Shown: positions 1,682-61,965 of the stretch, piece after piece | Numbering within the stretch: the first letter of the stretch is position 1 | Layout: every line of letters starts with the position of its first letter | Source: Vandiemenella viatica | Lineage: Eukaryota; Arthropoda; Insecta; Orthoptera; Morabidae | Assembly: GCA_031002005.1 (NCBI GenBank) | Contig: JARYHS010008074.1 | Location: 273,421,930 to 273,485,929, forward strand | DNA: 64,000 nt | Reading direction: 5' to 3' | Translations under genes and position numbers: made by a program | The notes under the pieces: model-generated | What the model saw: the letters and a program-made list of their open reading frames with translations, nothing else | The model's database searches: none | What the model was told of the DNA's origin: nothing

Positions 1682-1949
1682 CATGGGCGCCGGCAGGATT
1701 ACTTTAAGGGAGGTGCATCAGTTTTTTTTATACATTATAAATATATAACACTTATTACTTATTAGCTATGAATACTGAATTCATTGACAAGGTGTTGAAC
1801 AAATATGGACAACAACCTAGGGGCCTAAAGTTATTATTCAAACTGTGAATTTAATAATAATTTTTATTTCTTTATCGTTTTCTGTGTATTTTCGTTCATT
1901 GCAGAGGGGTGCAAGTGCACCCCCTTTCACCCCCCTCCCGGCACCCATG
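1682..1949. mobile_element. MITE with imperfect terminal inverted repeats and 8-bp TSD (copy A)
   Basis: The left end reads catgggcgccggcagg and the right end cctcccggcacccatg, which are inverted repeats with two mismatches. The flanks are aaaatata on both sides (1674-1681 and 1950-1957), an 8-bp target site duplication. The 268-bp element has no coding capacity. An 8-bp TSD points to hAT or P; the GC-rich TIR looks more hAT-like, but the family is not certain. Confidence 0.75.
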
Positions 1950-3640
1950 AAAATATAGGAGAACTTGAACCAACACGGCAACAGACATACAAAAAGGAAA
2001 TATAACCTGTTTATTAGTACTGTTACTACTGTGAATGTAAATCAAGTTTTACTCTGATACACCAAAAGTTTTATTAGAGAATTAAAAGCTGGTAACAATA
2101 AACTTGCATATTTGTACCATAAATTTGCTTTCAGTCTTTTTTTTTTTAAATATGAAAAGAACTATGGTAATCCAGTCATCAGGAAATGACATCAGTACAT
2201 TATACTGTAGGATATCATTTGTGCGAGGCGTCGGTATGTACACTCATTACTTTCCACCGGGGCCGAGACGTATTCTGTAGTGTAGGGTTGCAATATGTGG
2301 GGCCCTTCTATTTCGAAATTGTAAAGAAACTCTATTTTTGGAGGAGAGAGACTAAGATAAAGGCTATCGGTCACTGTATAAGAACGCAATTTCGTTCGTC
2401 ACTATCATCAAATAACTTTCGTACAATTATTATAAAAACTTTATTTATATTATTTCTTCTCGATTGTTTCACACCAACAACAATAAACTTTGTATATTTG
2501 TTGCAGAAAAATTAAAAAAACTATTGCGCAGATTTCGATTGGCTTTTCACCATTTTAAAGCTTAGATCAGATCAGAAATGAATTGTTTATTGAATTGAAT
2601 TGAATTTTATTTGATCCATGAAGTCATAATTTATGACATAGGACAAGTCATCAGTAATTACAATAAGCATTACAATATAATTTTTTTACACAATTCAGGA
2701 TTACATATCATTATTATAATTACCATACTTAAAATTGCACAGTCAATACAAGCAGCATATGAAATACATATGTTCAACTGAAGTTAAATTAATATTTCAA
2801 TGTTTTACAAGTTACAATACAAAATAATTTAATCATGTTTGTTCATTTCTCGATGGTTCATATATTCATTGACACTATAGAAGCTATTGACCAATAAAAA
2901 TTTTTTTAGCTTATATTTAAAATTATGTAAATTTGATATTTGTTTTATGTTTTCAGGAAGAGAGTTGTTTCGGTGTTACTTAACATCAGAGCATTAAATG
3001 AAATTTTGAACGTCTAGTTTGATACATCAAAAATACAATACCAACTAAATGTATACATCATACTTACATATTTCTGCCATATTACCGCATGTTCTTTCCT
3101 TAAATTTTGAATTATCAGTCTTTGAATGGGCATATTGAATGCAGATGGCGCGCAAGTAACATACGTAAATTAATTTTAATGATATAATGAAAAAAAAAGT
3201 TCTGAGAGCTTTTTGGTTCTTGATGCTATGATAGCTGATCGCACAGCTGTATACAGTTCCCTGTTACAATTAAGTATTGAATATCTGATTGATTTTAACT
3301 AGAAAGTGAATAGTTTATAACCATTAGTGACGACATCATAAACAGTTTAGGAAAATAGTTCCAGATAATTGTTATTCAGTTGAATCTTTTTGGTAGTACT
3401 GCAGATCGCGACACATTCTGCATTATATATGCTTCAGTTTTTCTATAATTTAACATTTATGTATTTTACAATAATTGAAAAATAAATTAATTATGAATTA
3501 TGTTATTCAGTTATCCATTTCTGATATTTTTGTAATTCATTTTTGAGACATTTTGTCTTTTCCACATATTCTGAAAAATTATTGTTTCTATTATTCTACA
3601 TCATGTAGAATAATAGAACAACAATCCACACTCTGCGTTA
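1950..3640. other. Repeat-derived noncoding stretch
   Basis: A repeated ttgaa motif at about 2588-2612, followed by AT-rich sequence, resembles the reverse complement of a LINE 3' end with a short tandem tail. A perfect inverted repeat, roughly tattattctacatca/tgatgtagaataata, sits at about 3588-3617. No intact gene is visible. The stretch is duplicated in copy B. Confidence 0.35.
2270..2400 (+). pseudogene. Possible BEL/Pao-type integrase scrap
   Basis: A short open stretch contains VGLQYVGPFYF followed by a basic segment RRETKIKA. This recalls the start of the integrase core of BEL/Pao elements, where VGxDYxGPF is followed by a KAY segment. The first catalytic Asp position is Gln here. No other part of such an element is visible nearby, so this is a weak call. 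The same reading frame is present in copy B (about 50150-50280). Confidence 0.25.
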
Positions 3641-3649
3641 GTGAGACCC

Positions 3650-5030
3650 CAGAGAGTTCCTTTCCACGTGAGGTATAACTTCAAGAGAGCTGACTGGTGG
3701 ATGTTCATAGAAATGTTGGATGCTGCTGTATCTACTATTGAACCAACACCAGAATCATATAACACATTAACTGAAACTGTGAAAAAAATGTTCCAGAAGA
3801 TTCATCCCCTTTGCTGTTGACTATCATTTATTCCGGCTCTCACCTCAGATCTAGCTGCCCAGTTCATGGACTATAAATCATTCTCACATGATCCCTTTGG
3901 AGAAATGACAGCGTAAGCTGGCAACCTACTTATCATATCTCTAAGTGCAGCAAAAAGATAACGCTGGAAGAAGACTTTAGAAGAGCTGGATCTGACAAGA
4001 GATAGTCACGAGGCATGGAGACTATTAAAATGCCTCAACAACAATCCATCGAAGATCACTGCACATTCCAACATCAATGCAGGCCAAATTGCATTTCAGC
4101 TAGTTATGAACGGGATGGAAATTCACAAAAGTATACCATCCAATAAATAAAGAAGAACACATAGAAACAGTAAGGAAGAAATGAACAATATCACCAAGGC
4201 CTTCAGTAAGGTGGAGCTGGAAAAGGTTATTCACGAGTGAAAAACAGGGACGTCGGCAGGCCAGGATGACATACGATCAGAACAAATTACGAACTTCGGA
4301 TATAAAGGCACAGAATGGTCCTACAGCTCTTTAACAAACGTATGAGCACATATCAAATTCCGAAGGTGTGGCGGAAGACCAAAGTGATTGACCTGCAGAA
4401 ACCTGGAAAAAAATGGAACGATCCCAAAGATTTACACTTACAAAATATTTGAACGATTAATCGTATTCAGCCTGTGATTAATCCAAAACTTATACCACAG
4501 CAAGGTGGCTTTCGCCCTGGTAAAAGTTGTACTAGACAATTTCTGAGTGTAACTCAATTATTAGATGATGAATTTGAGACCCGTAAGGCCACAGCTTGGT
4601 CTTTGTGGACCTGTCCGCACCATACGATTCTGTTAACCACCAACTACTCGTTGACTAGGTCTACAATCTGACAGAGGTCACCGGATTAACCTAGCTCATC
4701 GTAACTCTTCTACAGAATAATAGGTTATTTGTCGACTTTCAAGGACAGCGCAGCCAATGGAGGGTAAAAAAAAAAGATCTACCTAAAGGTAGCGTACTGG
4801 ACCCAATCCTTTATAACATTTATACAAACGATCAGCCATTACACCCAGCCACCAGGAGCTTCTTGTACGCTGATGACCCTGCCCTAGCCTCACAGAACAC
4901 AAAACTTGAAGCAGTAGAAAGAAATTTGTCTGCTGCCCTTGAATGCCTATCAAGCAATTATAGGGATAATCACTTAAGAACTAACCTGTATAGTGCCAGC
5001 CTAGAGCGAGGATTTAATCATTACCCATTA
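3650..5030 (+). pseudogene. Degenerate non-LTR retrotransposon reverse transcriptase (copy A)
   Basis: Broken reading frames carry recognisable pieces of a LINE ORF2 in the right order. First comes the linker after the endonuclease (FKRADWW and following), then the RT fingers with QQGGFRPGKSCTRQF near 4495-4540, then GSVLDPILYNIYTNDQP near 4790-4850, then the catalytic YADD box (YADDPAL) at about 4865. At least five frameshifts or stops separate them, and no endonuclease or 3' tail is attached. The motif spelling fits the Jockey/CR1/L2 side of the LINE tree, but I cannot assign a clade. The element is long dead and was duplicated with copy B (about 51535-52915). Confidence 0.8.
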
Positions 5031-5059
5031 TGGTCAAAACCCAGGGCACTTTACCCATA

Positions 5060-5520
5060 AAGGCAGCCCCGTGAAGACTCGATCGCCGCCGGCTTCGCGC
5101 CTTGTTTGATAAGTGAGGACGCACACGCACTTATTTAGTAATCGGAGCCGTTCCGAGGTCTTTTTAGGTAACCTTCGCCGCCGGGGATGACGCCCCGTCA
5201 GTATAAAGCCCATCTCAATCACACACTAGGGATCAGTGTGTATCAGTGGTCACTTAACAGCCCAGGACCGGCTGCCTGACACCCCACACTCTCTCCGCTG
5301 CGATCCAAAGTAAGCAGATCTATTGTATTATTATCTAATGTACACAGAAGCTTCTAAAGATATGCGCTGTTTTGGCTGAACACCCTTCATGAGGAAGGTA
5401 GCTAATAAACTGCTGTAGGCCCATACCGCACGGGGGGGCAAGCTGGTATAGTAATAATATCTGCTGTAGAGGTGGTTTGAGATCCTATGTTGGAACAGGA
5501 CCACAACGGTAGAAAATAAT
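5060..5520 (+). repeat. Probable 5' LTR of the decayed Gypsy element (copy A)
   Basis: This GC-richer block lies directly upstream of a gag-pol relic. It has a TATA-like box (cagtataaagccc, about 5199) and ends in aaaataat, followed by tggtgtcagctctgtgg, a primer-binding-site-like sequence beginning TGG. A related tail (ggtggcctgagatcctatg) recurs at about 44305. No matching 3' LTR was found after 8583, so the LTR call rests on position and promoter-like features. Confidence 0.4.
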
Positions 5521-5562
5521 TGGTGTCAGCTCTGTGGTCCAACACCATGATAATAGAGAAAT

Positions 5563-6260
5563 TTAGCGGCATTTGGAAGAAATTAGAGTTGTTAACTGCA
5601 AATACGAGCAGACAGTGTAAATCAGCTGGGATGGCAGTGGCGGAGTGAGAAATGGTGGGAGTAGCAGAATAAAAGCTGACAAACAAGTGAACAGCCAGTG
5701 GTTGCATAACTGGGGAGTCAGCGAGTGCACTGAAGTCACGCGGAAAGTAGTAAACATGGAGGAAGTAGAAGTTAATCCAAAGATGGGTACTGCAGGGAAG
5801 GCAGAAGGGCCCCGAAAAATAGAAACAACAGAGGATGCCGGGAATTTAAGTTTAACAGAGGCGCTTAAATTGATACCGCAGACATTTGACGGAAACAAGG
5901 CATAACATTGGGAGTTTATAGACAATTGTGATGTAGCAATGGATCTAGTATCCCCTACAGACAGAGAGGTCTGCCAGTTAAATGCTTTCGTACAAAAATT
6001 GTTGGTTCGGCCAGGAGTAAATTGAGAATCAGAGACAGAGTAACAACGTGGCCAGAGGTGAGGGCGGTATTAATAGAGAATTACGGATGTCGGCGCACAA
6101 TTGATTACTATGCATATTCTCCTTTCAGCAGTAAACAAGAGGCAGGAGAAAGAGTGTTAGATTGGACTTCTCGGATTGATAAAAAGCAATATGAATTAAG
6201 GGCTAGTGGACCGGGGAATGGCACAAGTGGTAGTAGATGTTCACAGGGTGGAGTGTAATT
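5563..6260 (+). pseudogene. Gypsy gag relic (copy A)
   Basis: Two open stretches (5645-5905 and 6022-6258) in different frames give a capsid-like segment. It includes TWPEVRAVLIENYGCRRT and, later, GERVLDWTSRIDKKQYEL, the spacing seen in Ty3/Gypsy Gag capsid domains (a W-x-x-x-x-x-L block followed by a GESVxDYxxR-like block). A stop and a frameshift separate them. In copy B the same gag is split by a Helitron after the equivalent of position 5850. Confidence 0.6.
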
Positions 6261-6459
6261 ATAGCCATTCGAGTCAGTGTGATAAATGTGATGGAAACGG
6301 TCAAAAGGGAGACCTAAGTCGGGATTATTCAGGGTTGAACATAGAGAAAAAGGAGTAAAACTTCGAACAGGCATAGGTGAGCAGCCATCCTATGCCTGTA
6401 AAGGTAATGTATTTGCATTCATTCGGCTGCAGTAAGGAAAACGAAACGGTAGGAATAAG

Positions 6460-7975
6460 TTGCGAAGAAGGCAAAACTAGTACTCTAACATTTTTGGTGG
6501 ACACAAGCTCACAGCTGTCCTTAGTAAGGAAGCCGCTCTCAAGGAGGGGGTCAATATAAACTGACGTAAGGCTCTAAGCATCATAGGACTTGGTGAGGAA
6601 TCATGGGAGACACTGGGCACAGTACGATTAGAATTACAGGTGAGTAAAGTGCATAAGCTTAATCATGAGTGGAATGTGATACAGAGGTCGGTAAAATTAC
6701 CTGCTCACGGTATACTGGGGCGAGACATGTTGGAGGAACATAAGGCGATAGTTGATTACGCCACCCAGCAGGTAAGGTTGGGCGGAACTTGGTTACCTTT
6801 AGAAAAAAGAAAAGAAGAAGAGCACAGACGAATCAGCCTAGGCGAAAAAGATGTTTCACAGCAAGAAAAAGCTAGTGGTATTCAATGAATAAAGTTAGGG
6901 ACCCGACAGGAGCGAGTGTTAGTGATTGCAATAGAGGGTTGTCAGAATGGTACAGCCGTAATTGCGAAAAGTGACGTCTATTCGGTAGTGTACTCACTGG
7001 AGGCACTTATTAGTGTTGTGGGAGGAAAAACGCCAATATCAATGGTCAACACCAATCAGGGAGAAGTCATGTTTCCCTGTCCAAAAATGAAAGTGGAAGC
7101 TTTCGATGATAGAGAAGTAGCAGTAGTATGGCGGGTTGAAATAAACATGCCGAATTTGGCAGCAGAGAGGTTGAAAATTCTAAAACAAAAACTGCAGGTG
7201 GACCACTTAAATACAGAAGAAAGAGATGATGTTATCGAGTTATGCGCTGCATACAACGACATTTTCCATTTGCCGGGGGACAAATTAAAATTTACAACTA
7301 TACTACAACACGAGATAGTTCTGAAACCAGAAGATGAAGGTCGGATAATAAATGTAAGACCATATCGCATCCTCCAAGTACAGAAAGAAGTATTGAAGAT
7401 GGAAGTGGATAAGTTACAGGCAGACGGTATAATAAAAAAAGTCTTAGTCTGTGGAATTTTCCTCTCCTTTTGCTACCGAAAAAACCCGATGCAAGCGGGC
7501 AGAAACGTTGGAGAATAGTAGTGGAATATAGAAAACATAACGACATAACAGTAGGGCATGTGTATCCTTTACCTCTAATCACAAACATACTGGATCAGCT
7601 AGGGAACGCGAAATATTTTACTACACTGGGCCTCTCGCATGGGTACTATCAGGTACTATTAGAACCAAAGTCACGAGAGAAGACAGCTTTTAGCAGTTTC
7701 CATGGACATTATGAGTTCACAAGGTTAAGTATGGGATTAAAGACAGGGCCAGCCTGCTTCCGAAGATTAATGAATACGGTGGTGGCGGGCCTTTAAGACG
7801 AAAAAGCACTAATCTATCTACATGATGTCGTGGTCCACGAATCTACTTTAGAAGAACACAATAAACGGTTGGCCCAGGTTTTTGACAGGCTCAGGCAGCA
7901 TAATTTGAAGCTGCAAGTTGACTAATGTTCTTTCTTGTGAAGTGAATTAGCATACTTAGGGAACGTTATTTCCAC
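6460..7975 (+). pseudogene. Gypsy protease and reverse transcriptase relic (copy A)
   Basis: A retroviral-type protease motif appears as LVDTSSQ (about 6495; the usual Gly of DTG/DSG is Ser), followed by HGILGRDMLEEH (about 6705). RT blocks follow: WRIVVEYRKHND, LGLSHGYYQVLLEP, TAFSSFHGHYEF, and the catalytic box as YLHDVVV (about 7815), where the first Asp of the usual YxDD is His. A frameshift in an A-run at about 7430-7440 and a stop after AGL (7796) break the frame. Copy B is intact at the A-run but has its own stop and a one-base loss elsewhere, so each copy has decayed separately. Confidence 0.85.
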
Positions 7976-7977
7976 TG

Positions 7978-8583
7978 ATGGAGTCTCGTAATATTGCGCT
8001 TGGCATTGCCGAAATTCTTGTTAGTGATTGTGGGATTCAATTTTTGAGCGATACGCTCAAAAAGGTGTGTAAGTTATTGCGGGTTTCTCGGGTAACAACC
8101 TCAGCATTTCGGCCTCAATCCAATGGGGTCTTTGAACAGACACATCGCACCCTTGCGGAATACTTACGTCATTTTATTAATTGGGAGCAGGATAATTGGA
8201 ATGAATATCTGCCCTACGCAGTATTTATCCATAATACCACCCCTCACTGTACCACGAGCCACGTTCCTCATAGTCTCTTTTTCGGGCGGCCTGTAAATTT
8301 ACCAGGGATCTTACAGAGGGAGAGTACAATTATGACGATTTCGCCGCAGAATTTAGGAACAGACTGCAGCAGGCACATGAGTGCACGAGACATCATACGA
8401 GCACGTGTTGGAATTGGGGGAGAAGAATGCCGTGCGCTGGAGCAAGGTCTCACTTGGCACGTAGATAGTATTAGGAAGTCTCAGGAACTCTTCGCACAAA
8501 TAACCAGACATAAGACACGCATAAAGCAAGGTCTCCCAAATATAGTAGGTACTACCATGGTCATTTTAATCCGAACGACCTGA
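7978..8583 (+). pseudogene. Gypsy integrase core and C-terminal fragment (copy A)
   Basis: A 201-codon open frame begins in the middle of an rve integrase core. It contains SDCGIQF (second catalytic Asp) and RPQSNGVFEQTHRTL (catalytic Glu), then HNTTPH and the FGRP block that normally follows the core. The RNase H domain, the zinc-binding HHCC region and the first catalytic Asp are missing, because an internal deletion joins the end of RT (VISTDG) directly to integrase. The same junction is in copy B, so the deletion predates the duplication. No chromodomain or env is seen. Confidence 0.85.
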
Positions 8584-9379
8584 ATTGCACATCGCTACAT
8601 TTCCTCCTGGGACTTATTCAACCCATTATACACATCTACCAAGACAGTACTATACCCAGTAGGTGGTACATTCACGTTAGTATCCAAAATTGAGACTCAA
8701 CCACCTCACAAAAAAGTGACATATTTTAACATATTCGTTATACAAACGAAAATATGGATTATATTTCGTTAATAAAAGAGTTATGCAGACATTAAATGCA
8801 CTTGGTTTAGGTTTTTAAAACATTTAGGAGAAATTGGTGCTCCTACAGAACATAAGAAGTTATTGTTTTCAAACAAAATGTTAATTTTGAACAAACGATA
8901 GGATCAAAAGAAAGGAATACCAATCATATTTCACTTAAAATAATTTGATATTAATGACAAAATCAATATTTTCGATGTATAACTATTCTGGACATACATG
9001 GCTATAAGTGAGAACGTTGAAAAATAACCACAGATTTTTTAAGTTAGTTAATATTGCGGTGTGCTATTAAGACATGTTGTTCTTTTAGTACTACATTTAA
9101 ACTTATTTTAGAAACACGCGGAAAAACTTATAACTAAATTACTGTCGTCAAATTACATGTCGTCAACGCAGTTTCAGTTGACAGTATTTTAGCGTCAAAA
9201 AACTTATTTTCACCTACCATTAATATCGAAAGCTGCTTAAACAGCACTGAATACTCCTTTTAAAACAAAAGCAAAACACGATAAGGGTTTAATTGATGAA
9301 GACACAATTTCACATAGCTTTGTCACATTTGTGCTTTTAATGGTGTTTAGTAAACAGGCAAAAAAGAAAAAAAACCAAT
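8584..9379. other. No gene recognised
   Basis: AT-rich sequence after the Gypsy relic. No LTR matching 5060-5520 is present, and there is no convincing coding frame on either strand. Confidence 0.6.
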
Positions 9380-9527
9380 ATGGCTTTTTCGCGATTGCGA
9401 TATTCTGTGGGTGCTGCTATTACAATTCAAACGACAGGTGAAACATTGGTTAGCTGTTCTTTCAATAAAAATAATAATAATAATAAACTACTGGTGAATA
9501 TTCAAGGACGTGCACCGGAAACGTTAG
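9380..9527 (+). other. Candidate short coding exon, unrecognised (copy A)
   Basis: A 49-codon stretch begins with ATG (MAFSRLRYSVGAA...) and ends at TTAG followed by gtaact, a plausible splice donor. Its N-terminus is basic and rich in Ser/Ala/Thr without acidic residues, as in mitochondrial presequences. Copy B keeps the frame despite a 3-base difference in an AAT run (five versus four Asn codons). It stops three codons after the donor if unspliced. The continuation would lie in the gap or beyond. It could easily be chance. Confidence 0.25.
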
Positions 9528-9586
9528 GTAACTAACAAACTGCTGCGTTTGATAGCGGACACGTACGAAATAATTGGTTCACTTCG

Positions 9587-12514: not shown

Positions 12515-13800
12515 TCTTATATCTTTAAACGAGCAATTCTTGTATATATATATATATATTTCGGATCTCGGAAACGGCTATGACGATTTGGATGAAATTT
12601 GATATTTAGATAATGTTTTGACTTTTAAGATTACCTAAATAGTTGTCTTCCGTACACAAAAGCTAGTTTGCAAAATACAAACAATTTTTTCACTTGATAT
12701 CTCGAAAACGGCACTAGCGCCATCTCGTAGACAATTCAGTTACCAGAAAGCATACAAATAGATTCTCTCTGATTTCAAAGAATATTTAAACGAACAGTTC
12801 TTGTATGCTGGCTGAGGCGTGGAAATAGTAACATTGCAAGTTTAATTGTAAAACATTTAAAAAGGAAGATAACTAAAAATTTATGATTGGTTTTGTCAGA
12901 AGTGATAAACTTCTTTGAAAATAATATTACCGGTACCAGTTATAAACTAATCACCGCTCACTTTTTGACCGTAAAAAGTGGTTGTTAGTTTGTCATTAAA
13001 TACTACCACGCGAGGTATGAGCATAGTTTTAGCGGAGTGAATTGATTTAGCACTGATGATGTTCTATCATTACCGTGACGTCACAATCTGATGATGAATT
13101 CTTATAGAACGCGACGAAACATATCGAAAATAAAGAATAAATGTTCTTGATATCTCGCTTGGTTTACGAGATATAGCATGTCAAAAATCAGTTATAGGTA
13201 CAGTTCCTTGTGCTTTTGGCGACGTTTCTTCTGGTCCATGTTGTATTTCAACCTAACAACAACCATTTGGAACAAAATAAAACATTAAAAGTACATTTCC
13301 ACCGTATCGACATAGTGCTTTTGGTGGATTCTTTTTCTGGTCCAGGTCGGATCTAATCCTAACCTCTTCACTTGAGGTATCAGAAAAATAAATTCTTTAT
13401 TTTCGATTTTTCTCGACGAGTTTCATACGAATTCATCATCAAACTTGGCTGTGACGAAATTTATCTTCTGGTCCAGGTCGCTTTTCAACCAACCACGTCA
13501 ATTTTGCGATATGATATCTCGAGAACTAAGCGAGATATATAAATTTAAAAATATTTTGTACTTTAAATTTTTCTCGTTGAGGTACATAAGAATCCATCAT
13601 CAAGGGTTTTCGTAGAATGCCCTGAATTAACACAAATCTCGCAGCGTTAATCAATCCCTGACTGGCATTAAGATTTCTGTTTAACATAATAATAGCATTT
13701 TTCTTTGAAAGCAATTTATGAGGCGGTCTCGCAAATGGATCTAACGATTTGGATGAAATGTCATATGTAGATAACGTTTTGCTATTCAAGTTTTTAACAC

Positions 13801-13832
<32 letters not shown>

Positions 13833-14060
13833 GTTACAATTTTTGTATTTGGTTTCTCGAAAACGGCTCTAACCTCATTACGTAGAAGGTTCAGGTACCA
13901 GTAAGCCTAATGATGTTAGTGAAGTTTCTCTTTGGTTAACTGTGCACCTCAAAACGCCTAGGAAGTCTTCAAGCCTTTTACTTTAATCAAACTTTACTCG
14001 AAATCTTGGATATTAAATAGAAATCGAAAGATGCCGAGCGAAGATCGGTCACCCAGGTAC
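12515..14060 (+). mobile_element. Non-autonomous Helitron (copy 1)
   Basis: The element starts TCTTATATCTTTAAACGAGC with host A before it. It ends CACCCAGGTAC with host T after it, which is the A|T target expected of Helitrons. Just inside the 3' end, ccgagcgaagatcgg forms the short hairpin typical of Helitron termini (one mismatch in a six-base stem). The last bases are GTAC where most families have CTRR. The copy at 53793-55620 has the same two ends. Inside are an AT microsatellite, repeat units of the gatatctcgagaactaag type, an A run (about 13806-13831) and a 45-base stub of antisense helicase at about 13010-13055. No Rep domain is present. Confidence 0.9.
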
Positions 14061-46399: not shown

Positions 46400-46600
46400 C
46401 TTATAAAGTGAAGGGAAGCTGTAAACAAATAGTTTTCACATCTAATCTATTACGTACTTCACAAAGATAAGTTAGTATTATCAAGAAGCACTTTGTTGAT
46501 AGTTACTAATATTTCTTTCATATCAAATGTTAATTACAATTTTTAATATCATGTTATTCACATCTTTTCTCAGTCTAAATACTATAATTCAAATACAGAA

Positions 46601-46606
46601 AATAAA
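46601..46606 (+). promoter_or_regulatory. Possible CFAP300 polyadenylation signal
   Basis: AATAAA within an A-rich run about 200 bases after the CFAP300 stop codon. It lies inside the duplicated segment (equivalent about 61 in copy A). Confidence 0.45.
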
Positions 46607-46988
46607 AAAAAAAAACAATAATTGAGTCTAATCACTTTTCATGTCCCCCAAAGCCATTATCATCATTATTTTGAGCATTTTGTCCGGCTGTCTCCTGAAG
46701 AATTTAGGACACAGGATAATGTAAGCATTGAATCAATTCGTTCAAAAATTCACACAAATTTTGCATTCAACACTTGTCAAGTTGAGAATATGTTGATTCT
46801 TCTTGTATAGTTTCAAAAACTAATTTTATGAACTTTTTTGCAGAAATTTTCCTTCATATTCGACAAAAATCTGATGAAAACACTTTTAAGTTTGACTGAG
46901 ATATGATGAGGCACGATTAAATGACAATCACTCAAGCAGGCAAATATAGCACTGATATGCTTAGAAATTAGTAATCAAGTATAGCCAA

Positions 46989-47699
46989 ATGATCCAAGCG
47001 GACAAAAGCATCATATTAACGGACTCCATGAGTGTCTTAAAACGGCTACATAACAACACGTGGAATTATCACCTCCCGATGACGATCTTAGAAATTAGGA
47101 AACAAATAAAAAGCAGTAAAGAACGGGGAATCACTACCTACCTGCTATGGGTTCCAGCTCACAAAGGTATAAAATACAATGAACAAGTGGATACTTTAGC
47201 AAAACAGGCCATCCTCAACGGATTTAAAGATGGTATGAACCTCCCGACGTCAGATATAATTCACACATTCAAAAAACGAGCCAAAGAAAAATGGCAAGAA
47301 GAATGGAGAACATCTCTAACCACCAAAGCATCGCACTATGGAAGCATCCAACCAATTATTCCACCTCAACCTTGGTTTTATAAATGGATCACAAGCAGAC
47401 GACTAACAACAATGATTTCCAGGCTGCGGTTCAACCACGGAAGATTTCCCAGCCACCTCTATCGACTAGGTCTGAGAGAATCTCCTCTCTGTGATTGTTC
47501 AGATCAGACTATAGGAGACACCAACCACATTATATTTTCCTGTAGAAAATTTAAACGGGCCCAGGATACCATGATCAAGGATTTAGTCAACATAGGAATC
47601 CCTCTTCCTACCAACCTAATCCTACTCCTAGTTAGCGATGACAAAGCAGTGTACAACAGCCTTATTAGATTCCTAAAAAATGGAAATATAGAAATCTAA
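46989..47699 (+). pseudogene. LINE ORF2 C-terminus: RNase H and CCHC zinc motif
   Basis: An open 236-codon frame, truncated at the start. RNase H residues are seen in ILTDSMSVLKRL (Asp), LLWVPAHKGIKYNEQVDTLA (His and final Asp), and the Glu block before the truncation is missing. The C-terminal zinc motif CDCSDQTIGDTNHIIFSC (about 47490-47545) is the C-x-C-x9-H-x4-C form common in I/LOA/R1-type LINEs that keep an RNase H. The frame is undamaged, so the insertion is young. Confidence 0.9.
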
Positions 47700-47739
47700 G
47701 ACCTCATCATCAAAAAATAAAAATGTCAATAAGCATAAA

Positions 47740-48275
47740 ATGAATTGTATAAACGACTACAACGATTCTGTTTTATTCCTTAAAGATTACGAGTAGAAAA
47801 GTGTGACTTAAAATTGTCATCAGTATAATAAAAATTGTAAGTAGCCTAAGTACAACTATAATTAGCATAAGCAAGATTGTAAATAGTATAATCAAACCTG
47901 TCAATAATTAAGCATAATGTATTATCTTACAATTCACGGATGTATGGTCATATAACCGAACGTGAACAAAAGAAAATAATAATTTAGACGCATGAATACC
48001 AATGTCGGTATTGCCTCACGTATACCTGCAATATGACTTGAAAACGAATTGTATCAACTGCTACTGCGATTCGGCTTTATACCTGAAAGTCTTTAATTAC
48101 GTTTAGATAAATTCTATTTAAAATTGTAACCAATATAATCAAAATTGTAAGTAGCATAAGTATAACGATAATTAACAGATGCAATATAATAATGAGTACA
48201 ATCAAACATGTTATTAGTTAACGATAATGAATCATGTTACAAGTGATGGCTGTATGGTTACATAACCGAATGTCA
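47740..48275 (+). repeat. Imperfect tandem duplication in the LINE 3' UTR
   Basis: Two units with about 299-base spacing share the phrases aattgtat.aac.actac, aattgtaagtag.(c)taagta and gtatggt.a.ataaccgaa. The second ends directly in the aata-rich tail. Confidence 0.75.
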
Positions 48276-48310
48276 ATAAATAAATAAATAAATAAATAAA
48301 AAAAAAAAAA

Positions 48311-51300
48311 ATATCTCACTGTTTTGGTAATTATTGATTTGCAAGACATTTCAGATATGATATTTTCTTCTTTCAGCTGATTAGCTTTACAATTTAATAA
48401 CTGGCAATTCGCAGCTTTGACAGAGATGGCGAAATGCTTAACAATTCGAAAACTCTGTCTCTAGGTCAGAAGAACACACAAAATTAGTTTAATGGCAATT
48501 TGTATAGCATGTAAGATTTATTGTTGTTACTTATTTATAGTTGTTATAGCTGTTGATTTATATCCATTAAGCTATTTAAGATCTGTATTGACCATTAGAA
48601 GTCCTGCATACAAGCCATCTACAAAAGATAGTGTCCACCAATCTTCTTCTTCTTCCTCACCACCTTTTCCCAAAATTTTGCTGTTAGCTGTCTTTGAGAA
48701 GATTGGAGCTATAATCTTATAGTCACATGGCCTTGCTGATGCATTTATATCTGCTGCCAGTTTTTACTAAGGGCTAATGGTGGAAGTGAAGTGTTGCCAT
48801 CTGTATGTATGTAAAACTCTGAACTGTATTCAGCACATGATAAGTATGTTTTTTTGTTTGTAAATTTGTATTTTATATTCACTTTGATGGATGTGTAAAA
48901 CTGACCAACAATGCAATCAGGATAACTAGTACATAGGGGTCTGTGCTCGTGCCTGCTCCATTGTACATCTCTGATCTAGTGTTTGGTGGATTAGCGCACT
49001 GAGTCACACTGGTGGGTAAGATAGAATCCATCAATATTTACAAAAAAATCATTTAAGATAAAAGAGAAACACACTTCACATATATAGAGTATTATGCACA
49101 ACTAAAGTAGCAATGGAATTCAATATTTATTCCTATTTCTTTATTTGTAATTATAACATTGGCTACACAACAACAACAAAAACCTTCCCCTGTTTCTTTT
49201 TCAAAGAGGCTATATGCAAAACATTATGTTTGGATCATAGCTGTATCGCGAGAACCAAATGGATCGAGGAATCTCTGGAAAATGCAGAGCATATTTACAA
49301 AATTAATAATTTGATATTTTTCTTTATAATATCCATATAAGGCTCATAACCTAACAAACATCACCAAGTAACTATATTTGACAATAAAGATCAGTTTTAT
49401 GGATGTGGGACAATTCATTGAAATAATAAAAAGCAAAACTAGTATGATATGTGCACACCATCGTAAGAAATTTCATTCAAATAATATCATTATTCCATGA
49501 GTAGTTCTCATATCCACAAAAATCAATCAAACTGAAAGTTTAGCTTGTATACAGAAAATATTCATGGGCGCCGGCAGGATTACTTTAAGGGAGGTGCATC
49601 AGTTTTTTTTATACATTATAAATATATAACACTTATTACTTATTAGCTATGAATACTGAATTCATTGACAAGGTGTTGAACAAATATGGACAACAACCTA
49701 GGGGCCTAAAGTTATTATTCAAACTGTGAATTTAATAATAATTTTTTATTTCTTTATCGTTTTCTGTGTATTTTCGTTCATTGCAGAGGGGTGCAAGTGC
49801 ACCCCCTTTCACCCCCCTCCCGGCACCCATGAAAATATAGGAGAACTTGAACCAACCCGGCAACAGACATACAAAAAGGAAATATAACCTGTTTATTAGT
49901 ACTGTTACTACTGTGAATGTAAATCAAGTTTTACTCTGATACACCAAAAGTTTTATTAGAGAATTAAAAGCTGGTAACAATAAACTTGCATATTTGTACC
50001 ATAAATTTGCTTTCAGTCTTTTTTTAAAAAAATATGAAAAGAACTATGGTAATCCAGTCATCAGGAAATGACATCAGTACATTATACTGTAGGATATCAT
50101 TTGTGCGAGGCGTCGGTATGTACACTCATTACTTTCCACCGGGGCCGAGACGTATTCTGTAGTGTAGGGTTGCAATATGTGGGGCCCTTCTATTTCGAAA
50201 TTGTAAAGAAACTCTATTTTTGGAGGAGAGAGACTAAGATAAAGGCTATCGGTCACTGTATAAGAACGCAATTTCGTTCGTCACTATCATCAAATAATTT
50301 TCGTACAATTATTATAAAAAATTTATTTATATTATTTCTTCTCGATTGTTTCACACCAACAACAATAAACCTTGTATATTTGTTGCAGAAAAATTAAAAA
50401 ACTATTGCGCAGATTTCGATTGGCTTTTCACCATTTTAAAGCTTAGATCAGATCAGAATTGAATTGTTTATTGAATGAATTGAATTTTATTTGATCCATG
50501 AAGTCATAATTTATGACATAGGACAAGTCATCAGTAATTACAATAAGCATTACAATATAATTTTTTTACACAATTCAGGATTACATATCATTATTATAAT
50601 TATCATACTTAAAATTGCACAGTCAATACAAGCAGCATATGAAATACATATGTTCAACTGAAGTTAAATTAATATTTCAATGTTTTACAAGTTACAATAC
50701 AAAATAATTTAATCATGTTTGTTCATTTCTCGATGGTTCATATATTCATTGACACTATAGAAGCTATTGACCAATAAAAATTTTTTTAGCTTATATTTAA
50801 AATTATGTAAATTTGATATTTGTTTTATGTTTTCAGGAAGAGAGTTGTTTCAGTGTTACTTAACATCAGAGCATTAAATGAAATTTTGAACGTCTAGTTT
50901 GATACATCAAAAATACAATACCAACTAAATGTATACATCATACTTACATATTTCTGCCATATTACCGCATGTTCTTTCCTTAAATTTTGAATTATCAGTC
51001 TTTGAATGGGCATATTGAATGCAGATGGCGCGCAAGTAACATACGTAAATTAATTTTAATGATATAATGAAAAAAAAAGTTCTGAGAGCTTTTTGGTTCT
51101 TGATGCTATGATATCTGATCGTACAGCTATATACAGTTCCCTGTTACAATTAAGTATTGAATATCTGATTGATTTTAACAAGAAAGTGAATAGTTTATAA
51201 CCATTAGTGACGACATCATAAACAGTTTAGGAAAATAGTTCCAGATAATTGTTATTCAGTTGAATCTTTTTTGGTAGTACTGCAGATCGCGACACATTCT

Positions 51301-51530
51301 GCATTATATATGTTTCAGTTTTTCTATAATTTAACATTTATGTATTTTACAATAATTGAAAAATAAATTAATTATGAATTATGTTATTCAGTTATCCATT
51401 TTTGATATTTTTGTAATTCATTTTTGAGACATTTTGTCTTTTCCACATATTCTGAAAAATTATTGTTTCTATTATTCTACATCATGTAGAATAATAGAAA
51501 CAACAATCCACACTCTGCGTTAGTGAGACC
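48311..51530. other. Copy B counterpart of 435-3640; no gene recognised
   Basis: The same noncoding and repeat-derived sequence as in copy A, including the integrase-like scrap near 50150-50280, which is read identically. Confidence 0.6.
49563..49831. mobile_element. MITE (copy B)
   Basis: Counterpart of 1682-1949. The left TSD has one change (aaaatatt instead of aaaatata); the right TSD is unchanged. Confidence 0.75.
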
Positions 51531-51534
51531 CCAG

Positions 51535-52915
51535 AGAGTTCCTTTCCACGTGAGGTATAACTTCAAGAGAGCTGACTGGTGGATGTTCATAGAAATGTTG
51601 GATGCTGCTGTATCTACTATTGAACCAACACCAGAATCATATAACACATTAACTGAAACTGTGAAAAAAATGTTCCAGAAGATTCATCCCCTTTGCTGTT
51701 GACTATCATTTATTCCGGCTCTCACCTCAGATCTAGCTGCCCAGTTCATGGACTATAAATCACTGTTCTCACATGATCCCTTTGGAGAAATGACAGCGTA
51801 AGCTGGCAACCTACTTATCATATCTCTAAGTGCAGCAAAAAGATAACGCTGGAAGAAGACTTTAGAAGAGCTGGATCTGACAAGAGATAGTCACGAGGCA
51901 TGGAGACTATTAAAATGCCTCAACAACAATCCATCGAAGATCACTGCACATTCCAACATCAATGCAGGCCAAATTGCATTTCAGCTACTCATGAACGGGA
52001 TGGAAATTCACAAAAGTATACCATCCAATAAATAAAGAAGAACACATAGAAACAGTAAGGAAGAAATGAACAATATCACCAAGGCCTACAGTAAGGTGGA
52101 GCTGGAAAAGGTTATTCACGAGTGAAAAACAGGGACGTCGGCAGGCCAGGATGACATACGATCAGAACAAATTACGAACTTCGGATATAAAGGCACAGAA
52201 TGGTCCTACAGCTCTTTAACAAACGTATGAGCACATATCAAATTCCGAAGGTGTGGCGGAAGACCAAAGTGATTGACCTGCAGAAACCTGGAAAAAAATG
52301 GAACGATCCCAAAGATTTACACTTACAAAATATTTGAACGATTAATCGTATTCAGCCTGTGATTAATCCAAAACTTATACCACAGCAAGGTGGCTTTCGC
52401 CCTGGTAAAAGTTGTACTAGACAATTTCTGAGTGTAACTCAATTATTAGATGATGAATTTGAGACCCGTAAGGCCACAGCTTGGTCTTTGTGGACCTGTC
52501 CGCACCATACGATTCTGTTAACCACCAACTACTCCTTGACTAGGTCTACAATCTGACAGAGGTCACCGGATTAACCTAGCTCATCGCTACTCTTCTACAG
52601 AATAATAGGTTATTTGTCGACTTTCAAGGACAGCGCAGCCAATGGAGGGTAAAAAAAAAAAGATCTACCTAAAGATAGCGTACTGGACCCAATCCTTTAT
52701 AACATTTATACAAACGATCAGCCATTACACCCAGCCACCAGGAGCTTCTTGTACGCTGATGACCCTGCCCTAGCCTCTCAGAACACAAAACTTGAAGCAG
52801 TAGAAAGAAATTTGTCTGCTGCCCTTGAATGCCTATCAAGCAATTATAGGGAAAATCACTTAAGAACTAACCTGTATAGTGCCAGCCTAGAGCGAGGATT
52901 TAATCATTACCCATT
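51535..52915 (+). pseudogene. Degenerate LINE reverse transcriptase (copy B)
   Basis: Counterpart of 3650-5030, with the same motifs (GGFRPGKSCTRQF, YADDPAL) and the same frame lesions, so it was dead before the duplication. It differs by a few bases, including three extra bases near 51762. Confidence 0.8.
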
Positions 52916-52945
52916 ATGGTCAAAACCCAGGGCACTTTACCCATA

Positions 52946-53468
52946 AAGGCAGCCCCGTGAAGACTCGATCGCCGCCGGCTTCGCGCCTTGTTTGATAAAC
53001 GAGGACGCACACGCACTTATTTAGTAATCGGAGCCGTTCCGAGGTCTTTTTAGGTAACCTTCGCCGCCGGGGATGACGCCCCGTCAGTATAAAGCCCATC
53101 TCAATCACACACTAGGGATCAGTGTGTATCAGTGGTCACTTAACAGCCCAGGACCGGCTGGCTGACACCCCACACTCTCTCCGCTGCGATCCAAAGTAAG
53201 CAGATCTATTGTATTATTATCTATTGTACACAGAAGCTTCTAAAGATATGCGCTGTTTTGGCTGAACACCCTTCAGGAGGAAGGTTGCTAATAAACTGCT
53301 CGTAGCTACAAATTGACTGATTTACTCTATCATTTCCGCTCCCTAGCCATTTGTACTAAGCTGTATGGCCCATACCGCACGGGGGGCAAGCTGGTATAGT
53401 AATAATATCTTCTGTAGAGGTGGTTTGAGATCCTATGTTGGAACAGGACCACAACGGTAGAAAATAAT
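52946..53468 (+). repeat. Probable 5' LTR of the decayed Gypsy element (copy B)
   Basis: Counterpart of 5060-5520, but it keeps about 65 bases (53299-53362) that copy A lacks. It is followed by the same tggtgtcagctc primer-site-like sequence. Confidence 0.4.
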
Positions 53469-53792
53469 TGGTGTCAGCTCTGTGGTCCAACACCATGATA
53501 ATAGAGAAATTTAGCGGCAATTGGAAGAAATTAGAGTTGTTAACTGCAAATACGAGCAGACAGTGTAAATCAGCTGGGATGGCAGTGGCGGAGTGAGAAA
53601 TGGTGGGAGTAGCAGAATAAAAGCTGACAAACAAGTGAACAGCCAGTGGTTGCATAACTGGGGAGTCAGCGAGTGCACTGAAGTCACGCGGAAAGTAGTA
53701 AACATGGAGGAAGTAGAAGTTAATCCAAAGATGGGTACTGCAGGGAAGGCAGAAGGGCCCCGAAAAATAGAAACAACAGAGGATGCCGGGAA

Positions 53793-55620
53793 TCTTATAT
53801 CTTTAAACGAGCAATTCTTGTATATATATATATATATATATATATTTCGGATTTCGGAAACGGCTGTGACGATTTGGATGAAATTTGGTATTTAGATAAT
53901 GTTTTGACTTTTAAGATTACCTGAATAGTTGTCTTCCCTACTAAAAAGCGAGTTTACAAAATATGAACAATTTTGTCACTCCGTATATCGAAAACGGCAC
54001 TAGCGCCATCTCGTAGACAATTCAGGTACCAGAAAGCCTACAAATAGAGTTTATTTGATTCCAAAGAATAAGTAAACGAACAGTTCTTGTATACTGGCTG
54101 ACCCGTGGAAATATTAGCACTGCAAGTTCAATTGTAAAACATTTAAAAAGAAAGATAATTAAAAATTTATCAATGGTTTTATCAGAGGTGATAACTTTAC
54201 AGGAACTTCTTTGAAATTAATATTACCGGTACCAGTTATAAAGTAATCATCGTTTACTTTTTGACTATAAATAGTGGTTGTTAGTTAGCCATTAAATACT
54301 ACCACCTTAATTATAAAACATCTTTCGATTTCTGTTCAATATACAAGATTTCGAGTAGAGTTTGATAATAAAGTGCATAATTAAATATTAATACATCTAC
54401 AAATTCCTGAAAAGCCGCGTGCGAGTGCACATACGAAAAAACGGGTTCTGATAAATAGAATCTTGCCTTTTGAATCGTCTGACCTTGTGCTTTATTGTTT
54501 ATAACGAAGGTTACTTCTTATGGGAATTGTTTTATTATCATTTTGAAATGCTGATCAGAAGATGTGAGATTACTGCGAGGTATGAGCATAGTTTTATCGG
54601 AGTGAATAAATATAGCACAGATGATGTTCTATTGACGTCACAACCTGATGATGAATTCTCATAGTACTCGATGAAACATATCGAAAAGAAATAATAAATT
54701 TTCCTGGTTTTCGAGATATAACATGTCAAAAATCAGTTATGGGTATAGTTCCTTGTGCTTTTGGCGACGTTTCTTTTGGTCCAGGCCGTATTTCAACCTA
54801 ACAAAAACCACTAGGTACAAAATAAAACATTGAAAGTACATTTCCACCATATAGACATAGTGCTTTTGGTGGATTTTTTTCTGGTGCAGGACGGATCTAA
54901 TCCTAACCTCTTCACTTTTGAGATATAATATCCCCAGAACTAAGTGAGATATCAGAAAAATTCCTTATTTTCGATTTGTCTCCACGAGTTTCATACGAAT
55001 TCACCATCAAACTTGGCTATGGCGAAATTTGTCTTCTGGTTCAGGTCGCATTTCAACCAACCACGTCAATTTTGAGATACGATATCTCGAGAACTAAGCG
55101 AAATATTTAAAAAAAATATATTTTTTACCTTCAATTTTTCTCGTCGAGTTACATAAGAATCCATCATCAAGGGTTATCGTAGAATCCTTTGAATTACCAC
55201 AAATCTCGCACCATTAATTAATACCAAACTGGCATTAAAATTTCTGTTTAACATATTAATAGATTTTTTTTTTTCTTAAAGTAATTTGTGAGGCCGTCTC
55301 GGAAATGGATCTAGCGATTTTGATGAAATTTCGCATGTAGATAACGTTTTGATTTTCAAGTTTTTAACACGATTTTTTTAAAAAAAAAAAAAAGGAGCAA
55401 CTTTTGTATTTGGTTTCTCGAAAACGGCTCTAACCTCGTACGTAGAAGTTTCAGGTACCAGTAAGCCTACTGATGTTAGTTAAACTTCTCTTTGGTTAAC
55501 TGTGCACCTCAAAACGCCTAGGAAGCCTTCAAGCCTTACACTTTAATCAAACTTTACTCGAAATCTTGGATACTGAACAGAAATCGAAAGATACCGAGCG
55601 AAGATCGGTCACCCAGGTAC
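53793..55620 (+). mobile_element. Helitron (copy 2), inserted in copy B only
   Basis: It starts TCTTATATCTTTAAACGAGC and ends CACCCAGGTAC with the same hairpin (ccgagcgaagatcgg) as the copy at 12515. Copy A gives the empty site: gccgggaa joined directly to tttaagttt, so the insertion lies exactly between A and T with no TSD, as Helitrons do. It is 1828 bp, about 270 bp more than copy 1, because it keeps a segment (about 54307-54578) that contains an antisense helicase piece. No Rep (HUH) domain is present. Confidence 0.95.
54384..54625 (-). pseudogene. Helitron (Pif1-like) helicase C-terminal fragment, antisense in the element
   Basis: The minus strand reads DKTMLIPRSNLTSSDQHFK, then IIKQFP, a stop, VTFVINNKAQGQTIQKARFYL and SEPVFSYVHSH. 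This follows the order of the end of the Helitron helicase: the LIPRI block, the SSDxPFxFKRxQFP block, the INKAQGQT helicase motif VI and the PEPVFSHGQ block. One in-frame stop interrupts it. It runs opposite to the element's TC-to-hairpin orientation, whereas the helicase of an autonomous Helitron runs with it. Copy 1 keeps only the first dozen or so residues (about 13010-13055). Confidence 0.85.
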
Positions 55621-56234
55621 TTTAAGTTTAACAGAGGCGCTTAAATTGATACCGCAGACATTTGACGGAAACAAGGCATAACATTGGGAGTTTATAGACA
55701 ATTGTGATGTAGCAATGGATCTAATATCCCCTACAGACAGAGAGGTCTGCCAGTTAAATGCTTTCGTCAAAAATTGTTGGTTCGGCCAGGAGTAAATTGA
55801 GAATCAGAGACAGAGTAACAACGTGGCCAGAGGTGAGGGCGGTATTAATAGAGAATTACGGATGTCGGCGCACAATTGATTACTATGCATATTCTCCTTT
55901 CAGCAGTAAACAGGAGGCAGGAGAAAGAGTGTTAGATTGGACTTCTCGGATTGATAAAAAGCAATATGAATTAAGGGCTAGTGGACCGGGGAATGGCACA
56001 AGTGGTAGTAGATGTTCACAGGGTGGAGTGTAATTATAGCCATTCGAGTCAGTGTGATAAATGTGATGGAAACGGTCAAAAGGGAGACCTAAGTCGGGAT
56101 TATTCAGGGTTGAACATAGAGAAAAAGGAGTAAAACTACGAACAGGCATAGGTGAGCAGCCATCCTATGCCTGTAAAGGTAATGTATTTGCATTCATTCG
56201 GCTGCAGTAAGGAAAACGAAACGGTAGGAATAAG

Positions 56235-57750
56235 TTGCGAAGAAGGCAAAACTAGTACTCTAACATTTTTGGTGGACACAAGCTCACAGCTGTCCTTAGT
56301 AAGGAAAGCCGCTCTCAAGGAGGGGGTCAATATAAACTGACGTAAGGCTCTAAGCATCATAGGACTTGGTGAGGAATCATGGGAGACACTGGGCACAGTA
56401 CGATTAGAATTACAGGTGAGTAAAGTGCATAAGCTTAATCATGAGTGGAATGTGATACAGAGGTCGGTAAAATTACCTACTCACGGTATACTGGGGCGAG
56501 ACATGTTGGAGGAACATAAGGCGATAGTTGATTACGCCACCCAGCAGGTAAGGTTGGGCGGAACTTGGTTACCTTTAGAAAAAAGAAAAGAAGAAGAGCA
56601 CAGACGAATCAGCCTAGGCGAAAAAGATGTTTCACAGCAAGAAAAAGCTAGTGGTACTCAATGAATAAAGTTAGGGACCCGACAGGAGCGAGTGTTAGTG
56701 ATTGCAATAGAGGGTTGTCAGAATGGTACAGCCGTCATTGCGAAAAGTGACGTCTATTCGGTAGTGTACTCACTGGAGGCACTTATTAGTGTTGTGGGAG
56801 GAAAAACGCCAATATCAATGGTCAACACCAATCAGGGAGAAGTCATGTTTCCCTGTCCAAAAATGAAAGTGGAAGTTTTCGACGATAGAGAAGTAGCAGT
56901 AGTATGGCGGGTTGAAATAAACATGCCCAATTTGGCAGCAGAGAGGTTGAAAATTCTAAAACAAAAACTGCAGGTGGACCACTTAAATACAGAAGAAAGA
57001 GATGATGTTATCGAGTTATGCGCTGCATACAACGACATTTTCCATTTGCCGGGGACAAATTAAAATTTACAACTATACTACAACACGAGATAGTTCTGAA
57101 ACCAGAAGATGAAGGTCGGATAATAAATGTAAGACCATGTCGCATCCTCCAAGTACAGAAAGAAGTATTGAAGATGGAAGTGGATAAGTTACAGGCAGAC
57201 GGTATAATTAAAGAAAGTCTTAGTCCGTGGAATTTTCCTCTCCTTTTGCTACCGTAAAAACCCGATGCAAGCGGGCAGAAACGTTGGAGAATAGTAGTGG
57301 AATATAGAAAACATAACGACATAACAGTAGGGCATGTGTATCCTTTACCTCTAATCACAAACATACTGGATCAGCTAGGGAACGCGAAATATTTTACTAC
57401 GCTAGGCCTCTCGCATGGGTACTATCAGGTACTATTAGAACCAAAGTCACGAGAGAAGACAGCTTTTAGCAGTTTCCATGGACATTATGAGTTCACAAGG
57501 TTAAGTATGGGATTAAAGACAGGGCCAGCCTGCTTCCGAAGATTAATGAATACGGTGGTGGCGGGCCTTTAAGACGAAAAAGCACTAATCTATCTACATG
57601 ATGTAGTGGTCCACGCATCTACTTTAGAAGAACACAATAAACGGTTGGCCCAGGTTTTTGACAGGCTCAGGCAGCATAATTTGAAGCTGCAAGTTGACTA
57701 ATGTTCTTTCTTGTGAAGAGAATTAGCATACTTAGGGAACGTTATTTCCA
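56235..57750 (+). pseudogene. Gypsy protease and reverse transcriptase relic (copy B)
   Basis: Counterpart of 6460-7975. It has the same substituted protease (LVDTSS) and RT box (YLHDVVV). It differs in having lost one G near 57052, an intact A-run near 57205, and a stop codon in LLLLP* (about 57255) that copy A does not have. Confidence 0.85.
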
Positions 57751-57753
57751 CTG

Positions 57754-58359
57754 ATGGAGTCTAGTAATATTGCTCTTGGCATTGCCGAAATTCTTGTTAG
57801 TGATTGTGGGATTCAATTTTTGAGCGATACGCTCAAAAAGGTATGTAAGTTATTGCGGGTTTCTCGGGTAACAACCTCAGCATTTCGGCCTCAATCCAAT
57901 GGGGTCTTTGAACAGACACATCGCACCCTTGCGGAATACTTACGTCATTTTATTAATTGGGAGCAGCATAATTGGAATGAATATCTGCCCTACGCAGTAT
58001 TTATCCATAATACCACCCCTCACTGTACCACGAGCCACGTTCCTCATAGTCTCTTTTTCGGGCGGCCTGTAAATTTACCAGGGATCTTACAGAGGGAGAG
58101 TACAATTATGACGATTTCGCCGCAGAATTTAGGAACAGACTGCAGCAGGCACATGAGTGCACGAGACATCATACGAGCACGTGTTGGAATTGGGGGAGAA
58201 GAATGCCGTGCGCTGGAGCAAGGTCTCACTTGGCACGTAGATAGTATTAGGAAGTCTCAGGAACTCTTCGCACAAATAACCAGACATAACACACGCACAA
58301 AGCAAGGTCTCCCAAATATAGTAGGTACTACCATGGTCATTTTAATCCGAACGACCTGA
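57754..58359 (+). pseudogene. Gypsy integrase fragment (copy B)
   Basis: Counterpart of 7978-8583: a 201-codon open frame with SDCGIQF and RPQSNGVFEQTHRTL, differing by a handful of residues. It has the same RT-integrase deletion junction. Confidence 0.85.
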
Positions 58360-59159
58360 ATTGCACATCGCTACATTTCCTCCTGGGACTTATTCAACCC
58401 ATTATACACATCTACCAAGACAGTACTATACCCAGTAGGTGGTACATTCACGTTAGTATCCAAAATTGAGACTCAACCACCTCACAAAAAAACGTGACAT
58501 ATTTTAACATATTCGTTATACAAACGAAAATATGAATTATATTTCGTTAATAAAAGAGTTATGCAGACATTAAATGCACTTGGTTTAGGTTTTTTTAAAA
58601 AAACATTTAGGAGAAATTGGTGCTCCTACAGAACATAAGAAGTTATTGTTTTCAAACAAAATGTTAATTTTGAACAAACGCTAGGATCAAAAGAAAGGAA
58701 TACCAATCATATTTCACTTAAAATAATTTGATATTAATGACAAAATCAATATTTTCGATGTATAACTATTCTGGACATACATGGCTATAAGTGAGAACGT
58801 TGAAAAATAACCACAGATTTTTTAAGTTAGTTAATATTGCGGTGTGCTATTAAGACATGTTGTTCTTTTAGTACTACATTTAAACTTATTTTAGAAACAC
58901 GCGGAAAAACTTAACTAAATTACTGTCGTCAAATTACATGTCGTCAACGCAGTTTCAGTTGACAGTATTTTAGCGTCAAAAAACTTATTTTCACCTACCA
59001 TTAACATCGAAAGCTGCTTAAACAGCACTGAATACTCCTTTTAAAACAAAAGCAAAACACGATAAGGGTTTAATTGATAAAGACACAATTTCACATAGCT
59101 TTGTCACATTTGTGCTTTTAATGGTGTTTAGTAAACAGGCAAAAAATAAAAAAACCAAT
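58360..59159. other. No gene recognised
   Basis: Counterpart of 8584-9379. AT-rich, with no LTR and no coding frame. Confidence 0.6.
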
Positions 59160-59304
59160 ATGGCTTTTTCGCGATTGCGATATTCTGTGGGTGCTGCTAT
59201 TACAACTCAAACGACAGGTGAAACATTGGTTAGCAGTTCTTTCAATAAAAATAATAATAATAAACTACTGGTGAATATTCAAGGACGTGCACCGGAAACG
59301 TTAG
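59160..59304 (+). other. Candidate short coding exon, unrecognised (copy B)
   Basis: Counterpart of 9380-9527, with one fewer Asn codon and an intact frame and donor (ttag|gtaact). No downstream exon that continues it was recognised in 59364-64000. Confidence 0.25.
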
Positions 59305-59616
59305 GTAACTAACAAACTGCTGCGTTTGATAGCGGACACGTACGAAATAATTGGTTCACTTCGCGATTTATACGCTTTTTGCTACTTGAAATTATTATTG
59401 TAGGCCAACTTATCACCCCATATTGATGTTAATACTACGGTGAGCTCTTCCGACAGTAGTCCGTAAAGAGCTTGCACTGATTTAAGGCGTAAAGTTTTGC
59501 CAGTCATCTGGTAACCAAAAATACAACCAGAAATTACACAATTTTACAAATTGATACTAGTGAGGATCATAAATTCAATAACAATTGTTTTCATATTTTG
59601 TAACAGTTGTATATGC

Positions 59617-59811
59617 CGGCCTCGGTAGCGTAGGGGCTAGAGTGCTAGCTCCACGTGCCGAAGGCCGCCGGTTCGAATCCGGCCGCGGGCATGGATGTTA
59701 AGTGTTGTGTGTCTGTGTTAATGTCTTGTGTCCTGTGGCGTCCATACATTGGAAAAAATACACATTGAGCTGGCTGTATGGCCTCCGTTGCCGAATGCCA
59801 TTAAAAAAAAA
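59617..59811 (+). mobile_element. tRNA-derived SINE with about 14-bp TSD
   Basis: Same family as 44557-44979: A-box gtagcgtaggggctag, B-box ggttcgaatcc, body with ctggctgtatggcc, and a short A tail. It is flanked by aacagttgtatatg and aacagttgtttatg, one mismatch in 14. Confidence 0.88.
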
Positions 59812-61855: not shown

Positions 61856-61877
61856 GATTTGGGGAAAACCCCAAATC
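61856..61877. repeat. Perfect 9-bp stem hairpin
   Basis: gatttgggg, aaaa, ccccaaatc: perfect inverted repeat with a four-base loop, immediately next to a tRNA-like segment. Confidence 0.9.
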
Positions 61878-61965
61878 TTGATGACCCGGCGAGGAATCGA
61901 ACCTGTGTCCTACGGAATGAGAAGCAAGAGATTCACCGCATATCCCACCATGCCCGGTCATTCAC
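61878..61965 (-). mobile_element. tRNA-like segment, probably a SINE head
   Basis: On the minus strand, gggcatggtgggatatgcgg resembles an A-box region and caggttcgattcctcg a T-arm with B-box. The acceptor stem does not pair well, so it is a SINE head or tRNA pseudogene rather than a working tRNA. Confidence 0.45.

Follow-up and report, generated by a model that had tools for sequence, protein, structure and literature searches.

The present analysis identified, at positions 53793-55620 of the window (the whole stretch of 64,000 nucleotides that was analyzed), an insert of 1828 bp that is absent at an empty counterpart located in the same window, between A5844 and T5845. With a probability of roughly 85%, this insert, hereafter called e1, belongs to the canonical (Helitron1-like) type of Helitrons and is non-autonomous. 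It starts with 5′ TC, is inserted between A and T, carries a hairpin 11 nt before its 3′ end and has no terminal inverted repeat (TIR). Every testable feature of canonical Helitrons was found except the 3′ CTRR. Since CTRR was searched for at the 3′ end and is not present there, e1 is described here as Helitron-type with a variant 3′ end and not as a strict member. Overall, the case looks like a real and mostly ordinary insertion of recent date, with a slightly unusual terminal tetranucleotide. The insert and its empty site are as follows:

53793..55620, plus strand: e1, first copy of the probable non-autonomous Helitron-type element; the corresponding empty site lies at 5844|5845 and no frame exceeds 75 aa
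5844..5845, no strand: unoccupied A|T target within segment A, from comparison of its flanks with those of the filled site

The empty site reads ATGCCGGGAA(5844)|(5845)TTTAAGTTTA and the filled site reads ...GCCGGGAA(53792)|TCTTATATC...CCCAGGTAC(55620)|TTTAAG.... When 106 bp and 115 bp of the flanks of e1 were joined and aligned to the empty site, the junction was gap-free, with a single substitution located away from it. This alignment confirms both the length and the flanks announced by the original prediction (1828 bp between A and T, with the same flanks at the empty copy). The ends had also been claimed to be fixed to the base; they are fixed to within one base, since the insert and its right flank both begin with T, which lets the boundaries slide rightwards by one base, but not leftwards, and leaves one T assignable to either side. 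Three readings of e1 are therefore available: TC...GTAC inserted in A|T, C...GTACT inserted after AT, or C...GTAC accompanied by a 1-bp duplication of T. The second copy described below leaves this ambiguity standing, a T being also adjacent to its 3′ end. We prefer the insertion of TC...GTAC in A|T because the canonical Helitron rule then fits both copies. As for the claimed direct display of a lack of target site duplication (TSD), no duplication is visible at the site, but a 1-bp duplication of T is formally possible and would fit it as well as the absence of any TSD.

The comparison of the window with itself revealed that the empty and filled sites are carried by two long related segments:

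1..9586, plus strand: segment A, empty haplotype or duplicate, ending at a gap of 1000 N (9587-10586), from self-comparison
46541..59363, plus strand: segment B, haplotype or duplicate with the filled site, differing from A by 0.81% substitutions, from self-comparison

The homology opens at base 1 of the window and runs up to the very edge of the N gap, with 78 substitutions in 9576 positions. The divergence per bin ranges from 0.46 to 1.46% (13 full or partial 1-kb bins), the highest value being that of a partial bin that touches a 63-bp junction and may be slightly inflated. The two sites had been presented as copies with the same flanks; the flanks do match, but A and B represent one segment, either duplicated or allelic, that extends over 9.6 kb or more, and are not mere repeat copies. 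Three larger insertions distinguish B from A: a LINE fragment, a stretch of 63 bp and the Helitron. The LINE fragment is truncated (about 1.33 kb, 46978-48310), includes an RNase H domain (PF00075) and an (AATA)n/poly-A tail, and is absent from A at base 431. The 63-bp stretch (about 53301-53363), which is missing in A, is located about 430 bp to the left of the Helitron.

Since the homology runs through the whole of 1-9586 up to the 1000-N gap at 0.81% divergence, we consider it rather probable that a single locus is present here as two haplotypes, one with the empty site and one with the filled site, falsely duplicated across an assembly gap. The arrangement of the two segments would fit an overlap between the terminal part of one haplotype contig and the initial part of the following one. 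Alternatively, A and B could be a true recent segmental duplication, the Helitron having entered copy B afterwards. This second explanation, which we regard as somewhat unlikely, agrees with the presence of two segments about 46.5 kb apart that share their orientation and are homologous over 9.6 kb or more. Furthermore, contigs also break at long duplications of recent origin, whose ends are then marked by gaps; therefore, the stop of the homology at the gap is not decisive by itself. However, the homology fills the whole part of the first contig included in the window, and beyond the gap, the sequence at 10587-20000 shows no extension of the match to the sequence that follows segment B (59364-64000), the best chance hits having E values of 0.45 and above. 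In addition, gaps between duplicates of a same scaffold are given as a mark of false duplication in the excerpts used of PMC9516828. If A and B are haplotypes, it follows that the insertion is probably polymorphic. Under either explanation, the insertion of e1 is younger than the split between A and B (0.8% divergence), unless A lost the element without trace. The case also illustrates how ready-made empty sites for transposons can be supplied by false duplications in assemblies.

A second copy of the element was found in the window:

12515..14060, plus strand: e2, second copy, 1546 bp, with A and T as neighbours; 1359/1510 aligned bases are shared with e1, and 354 columns of the alignment contain gaps

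The two copies share 90% identity over aligned bases, and their first 28 and last 27 bases do not differ, whereas the flanks of e2 do not resemble those of e1 beyond the adjacent A and T. The second copy had been said to obey the same A|T rule: its neighbours and its ends agree with this, but within the window the rule amounts to two copies and one empty site. With up to three mismatches, a 20-base motif from the 5′ end is found at two places in the window (compared to 0.02 expected by chance) and a 21-base motif from the 3′ end also at two places (compared to 0.00 expected). When gaps are left out, e1 and e2 agree without interruption for 52 aligned columns from the 5′ terminus and for 27 from the 3′ terminus. 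Among 20000 shuffles of the match string, 95 reached the 5′ run, 1227 the 3′ run and six both of them; the perfect run at the 5′ end is unusual and the one at the 3′ end, taken alone, mildly so. The length of the (TA)n tract that follows the 5′ end differs by 8 bp between the copies. No match to the 5′, subterminal or 3′ motifs was detected in viral contigs or in bacterial and archaeal genomes, collections that say little about relatives of the element. A literature search with the letters of the terminal motifs gave no match; among the papers listed for a search including GTAC, two contain a word that begins with these letters, and neither is a Helitron paper judging by its title.

The ends of the element have the following anatomy:

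53793..53820, plus strand: 5′ end TCTTATATCTTTAAACGAGCAATTCTTG, same in e1 and e2 (copy comparison), followed by a (TA)n tract (53821-53845)
55593..55609, plus strand: 3′ hairpin ACCGAGCGAAGATCGGT, separated from the 3′ terminus by 11 nt; a weak fold, although it ranks first of 1809 among the 19-nt hairpins of e1
55617..55620, plus strand: 3′-terminal GTAC in the place of CTRR, followed by the target T, in both copies

The 5′ TC is the start of TCTTATATC in both copies (2/2), with the caveat of the 1-bp T mentioned above. The hairpin of e1 includes a mismatch in its stem and has a folding energy of -4.0 kcal/mol as DNA. In e2, a 31-nt fold keeps the core of the hairpin at -3.5 kcal/mol, and the 19-nt fold prefers other pairs at -3.1 kcal/mol. 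A 44-nt fold of the 3′ end, in which GGTAC and flanking bases pair with upstream bases, gives a z-score of -1.66, 16 of 200 shuffles folding as well. The original prediction of a 3′ end in GTAC instead of CTRR holds in the two copies, and this end is kept despite their 10% divergence; CTRRT was not found in either copy between the hairpin and a point 80 bp beyond the 3′ terminus. GTAC differs from CTRY by its first base alone, and 3′ ends in CTRY are known in insects for Lep1 and Hel1, according to the descriptions of these families cited below. Taken together, the ends, the A|T site and the hairpin support the assignment to the Helitron type with a shared 3′ hairpin sequence, as had been proposed.

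Both copies are non-coding. The longest stop-to-stop frame of e1 has 75 aa; that of e2 has 126 aa, lies on the minus strand and runs through the poly-A tract. No RepHel gene was found in the window among the 35 frames of at least 140 aa inspected by eye, 10 of which were compared to Pfam; four of these 10 frames did not include any Pfam family.

Two other classes of elements were considered besides canonical Helitrons. The insert could be a Helentron/DINE-1-like element, i.e., belong to the Helitron2 side, which we consider improbable. Like Helentrons, DINE-1 and HINE elements as described in the excerpts of PMC4067079, e1 is non-coding and has a 3′ stem-loop and a microsatellite, here near the 5′ end; its site can even be read as T|T after a 1-bp shift. 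However, these elements have subterminal inverted repeats and a TT target, whereas A|T fits both copies of the present element and the same shift gives T|A in e2. Between the first 60 and the last 120 bases, the best subterminal inverted repeats have only 9 nt (e1) and 8 nt (e2) with one mismatch, scores that 102/200 and 177/200 base shuffles, respectively, matched, i.e., the chance level. This class was rejected in the absence of subterminal inverted repeats of 12-15 bp and of a TT target common to both copies.

Very improbable is a cut-and-paste element generating a TSD of 1 bp (T) or none, such as the AT-specific ATons of Aedes aegypti or another type. The available text of PMC3422177 describes ATons as non-autonomous elements inserted between A and T without clear TSD, as is e1, and a 1-bp duplication of T would be compatible with both copies. 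However, ATons have TIRs and are smaller than 500 bp; no TIR was found in e1 or e2, only 2/15 terminal bases matching in each copy, and ATons were rejected on this basis. Finally, the loss of the element from A instead of its gain in B, conceivable since two sequences are compared without outgroup, is also very improbable and was rejected, the A|T site of A having no footprint and Helitrons being described as copy-and-paste in the excerpts of PMC6544945.

Returning to the assignment to canonical Helitrons, the interior of the element is composite and includes two stretches of note:

54306..54574, plus strand: 269-bp stretch present in e1 and missing from e2, from the copy alignment
54770..55170, plus strand: interior stretch of some 400 bp with a resemblance of about 70% to tandem repeats found in a TIR element (27804-30775) and in its relatives, from self-comparison

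Internal direct repeats link positions 62-249 and 1507-1678 of e1 (numbering of the element) with 69% identity. Within the 269-bp stretch, positions 54320-54366 repeat the 3′ subterminal region of the element (55546-55592) in inverted orientation, with 94% identity over 47 nt; the stretch is devoid of the terminal hairpin. The motif CAGGTACCAG is located within the internal direct repeat, at 54023-54032 and 55452-55461 in e1 and at 13892-13901 in e2. Its resemblance to the terminal CCCAGGTAC suggests that it may possibly correspond to old internal ends. Leaving apart the direction of transfer, such a patchwork interior suits putative events of read-through and capture by Helitrons.

Other repeats are also present in the window. 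The TIR element at 27804-30775 (CATGGAGGAAGGAAT...) is flanked by an 8-bp duplication (ACAACTAC), and a related repeat contains its empty site (about 20326-20334). The minus strand carries a shorter relative at 36563-37238 with an 8-bp duplication (GTATGGCA), and a further partial relative is present at 38509-39038. Pieces of a Pogo/Tigger-like transposase (41851-43332) carry the Pfam domains HTH_Tnp_Tc5, CENP-B_N and DDE_1. A LINE protein of the window has 152 protein matches; among the 120 listed, the best named one comes from a dragonfly (33% identity), and the other named ones include cockroach, mosquitoes, Daphnia, pine entries and a cyanobacterial MAG, so that these matches point only weakly to an insect as the source of the DNA.

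By analogy with characterized Helitrons, e1 is predicted to move as follows. A RepHel protein encoded elsewhere would nick the 5′-TC end and its helicase would peel off one strand; the 3′ hairpin would stop this peeling 11 nt before the end and the strand would be cut after GTAC; the single-stranded or circular intermediate would then be joined into an AT dinucleotide. The RepHel enzyme, the rolling-circle replication and the cut after GTAC are all inferred from the analogy, and mobilization of e1 in trans by a RepHel with a GTAC cut site is what Helraiser leads us to predict. More tentatively, the element could belong to a recently active lineage in which RepHel terminates the transfer of the strand at GTAC|T and not at CTRR|T, its 3′ cleavage specificity having changed and its A|T targeting having been retained.

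The element is probably one of many insect Helitron families. A widespread lepidopteran repeat may start in much the same way and finish with a hairpin followed by CCCAGAT..., in which case the family of the element would already be known in repeat libraries. In any case, its GTAC end implies that finders requiring CTRR would miss this family. According to the excerpted text of PMC3789558, the CTRR-based search of that study was unable to identify families of atypical structure.

Among known systems, the Helitron2-type ends of fungi (PMC5148889) and the DINE-like Helitrons of a fly (PMC3630058) did not provide a closer match to e1 in the excerpts compared. Lep1, Hel-2 and Hel1 (excerpts of PMC4038834, PMC4344730 and PMC6544945), which are likened to e1 by their descriptions, are non-autonomous like e1, start with TC, are inserted in A|T and have a 3′ hairpin. 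Furthermore, Hel-2 includes an internal microsatellite, as does e1, and insertion polymorphism and empty sites have been reported for Lep1, e1 having an empty site and being probably polymorphic as well. These three families differ from e1 by their CTRR or CTRY ends and by their sizes (162 to 1006 bp in these excerpts compared to 1828 bp with a GTAC end for e1). As regards Helraiser, the canonical animal Helitron that has been tested by experiment (excerpts of PMC4778049), its end is CTAG compared to GTAC for e1, whose hairpin is weaker and imperfect and which is devoid of coding sequence. Following removal of the terminator of Helraiser, some CTTG ends were observed according to the same excerpts. 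In its junctions, A|TC at the 5′ end and ...|T at the 3′ end, Helraiser resembles e1, with A joined to 5′-TC, the 3′ end joined to T, and neither visible TSD nor TIR. Its palindrome, which acts as a terminator, is located 11 nt before the end, i.e., at the same distance as the hairpin of e1, and a hairpin 11 nt before the terminus is also reported for canonical Helitrons in the excerpts of PMC4067079.
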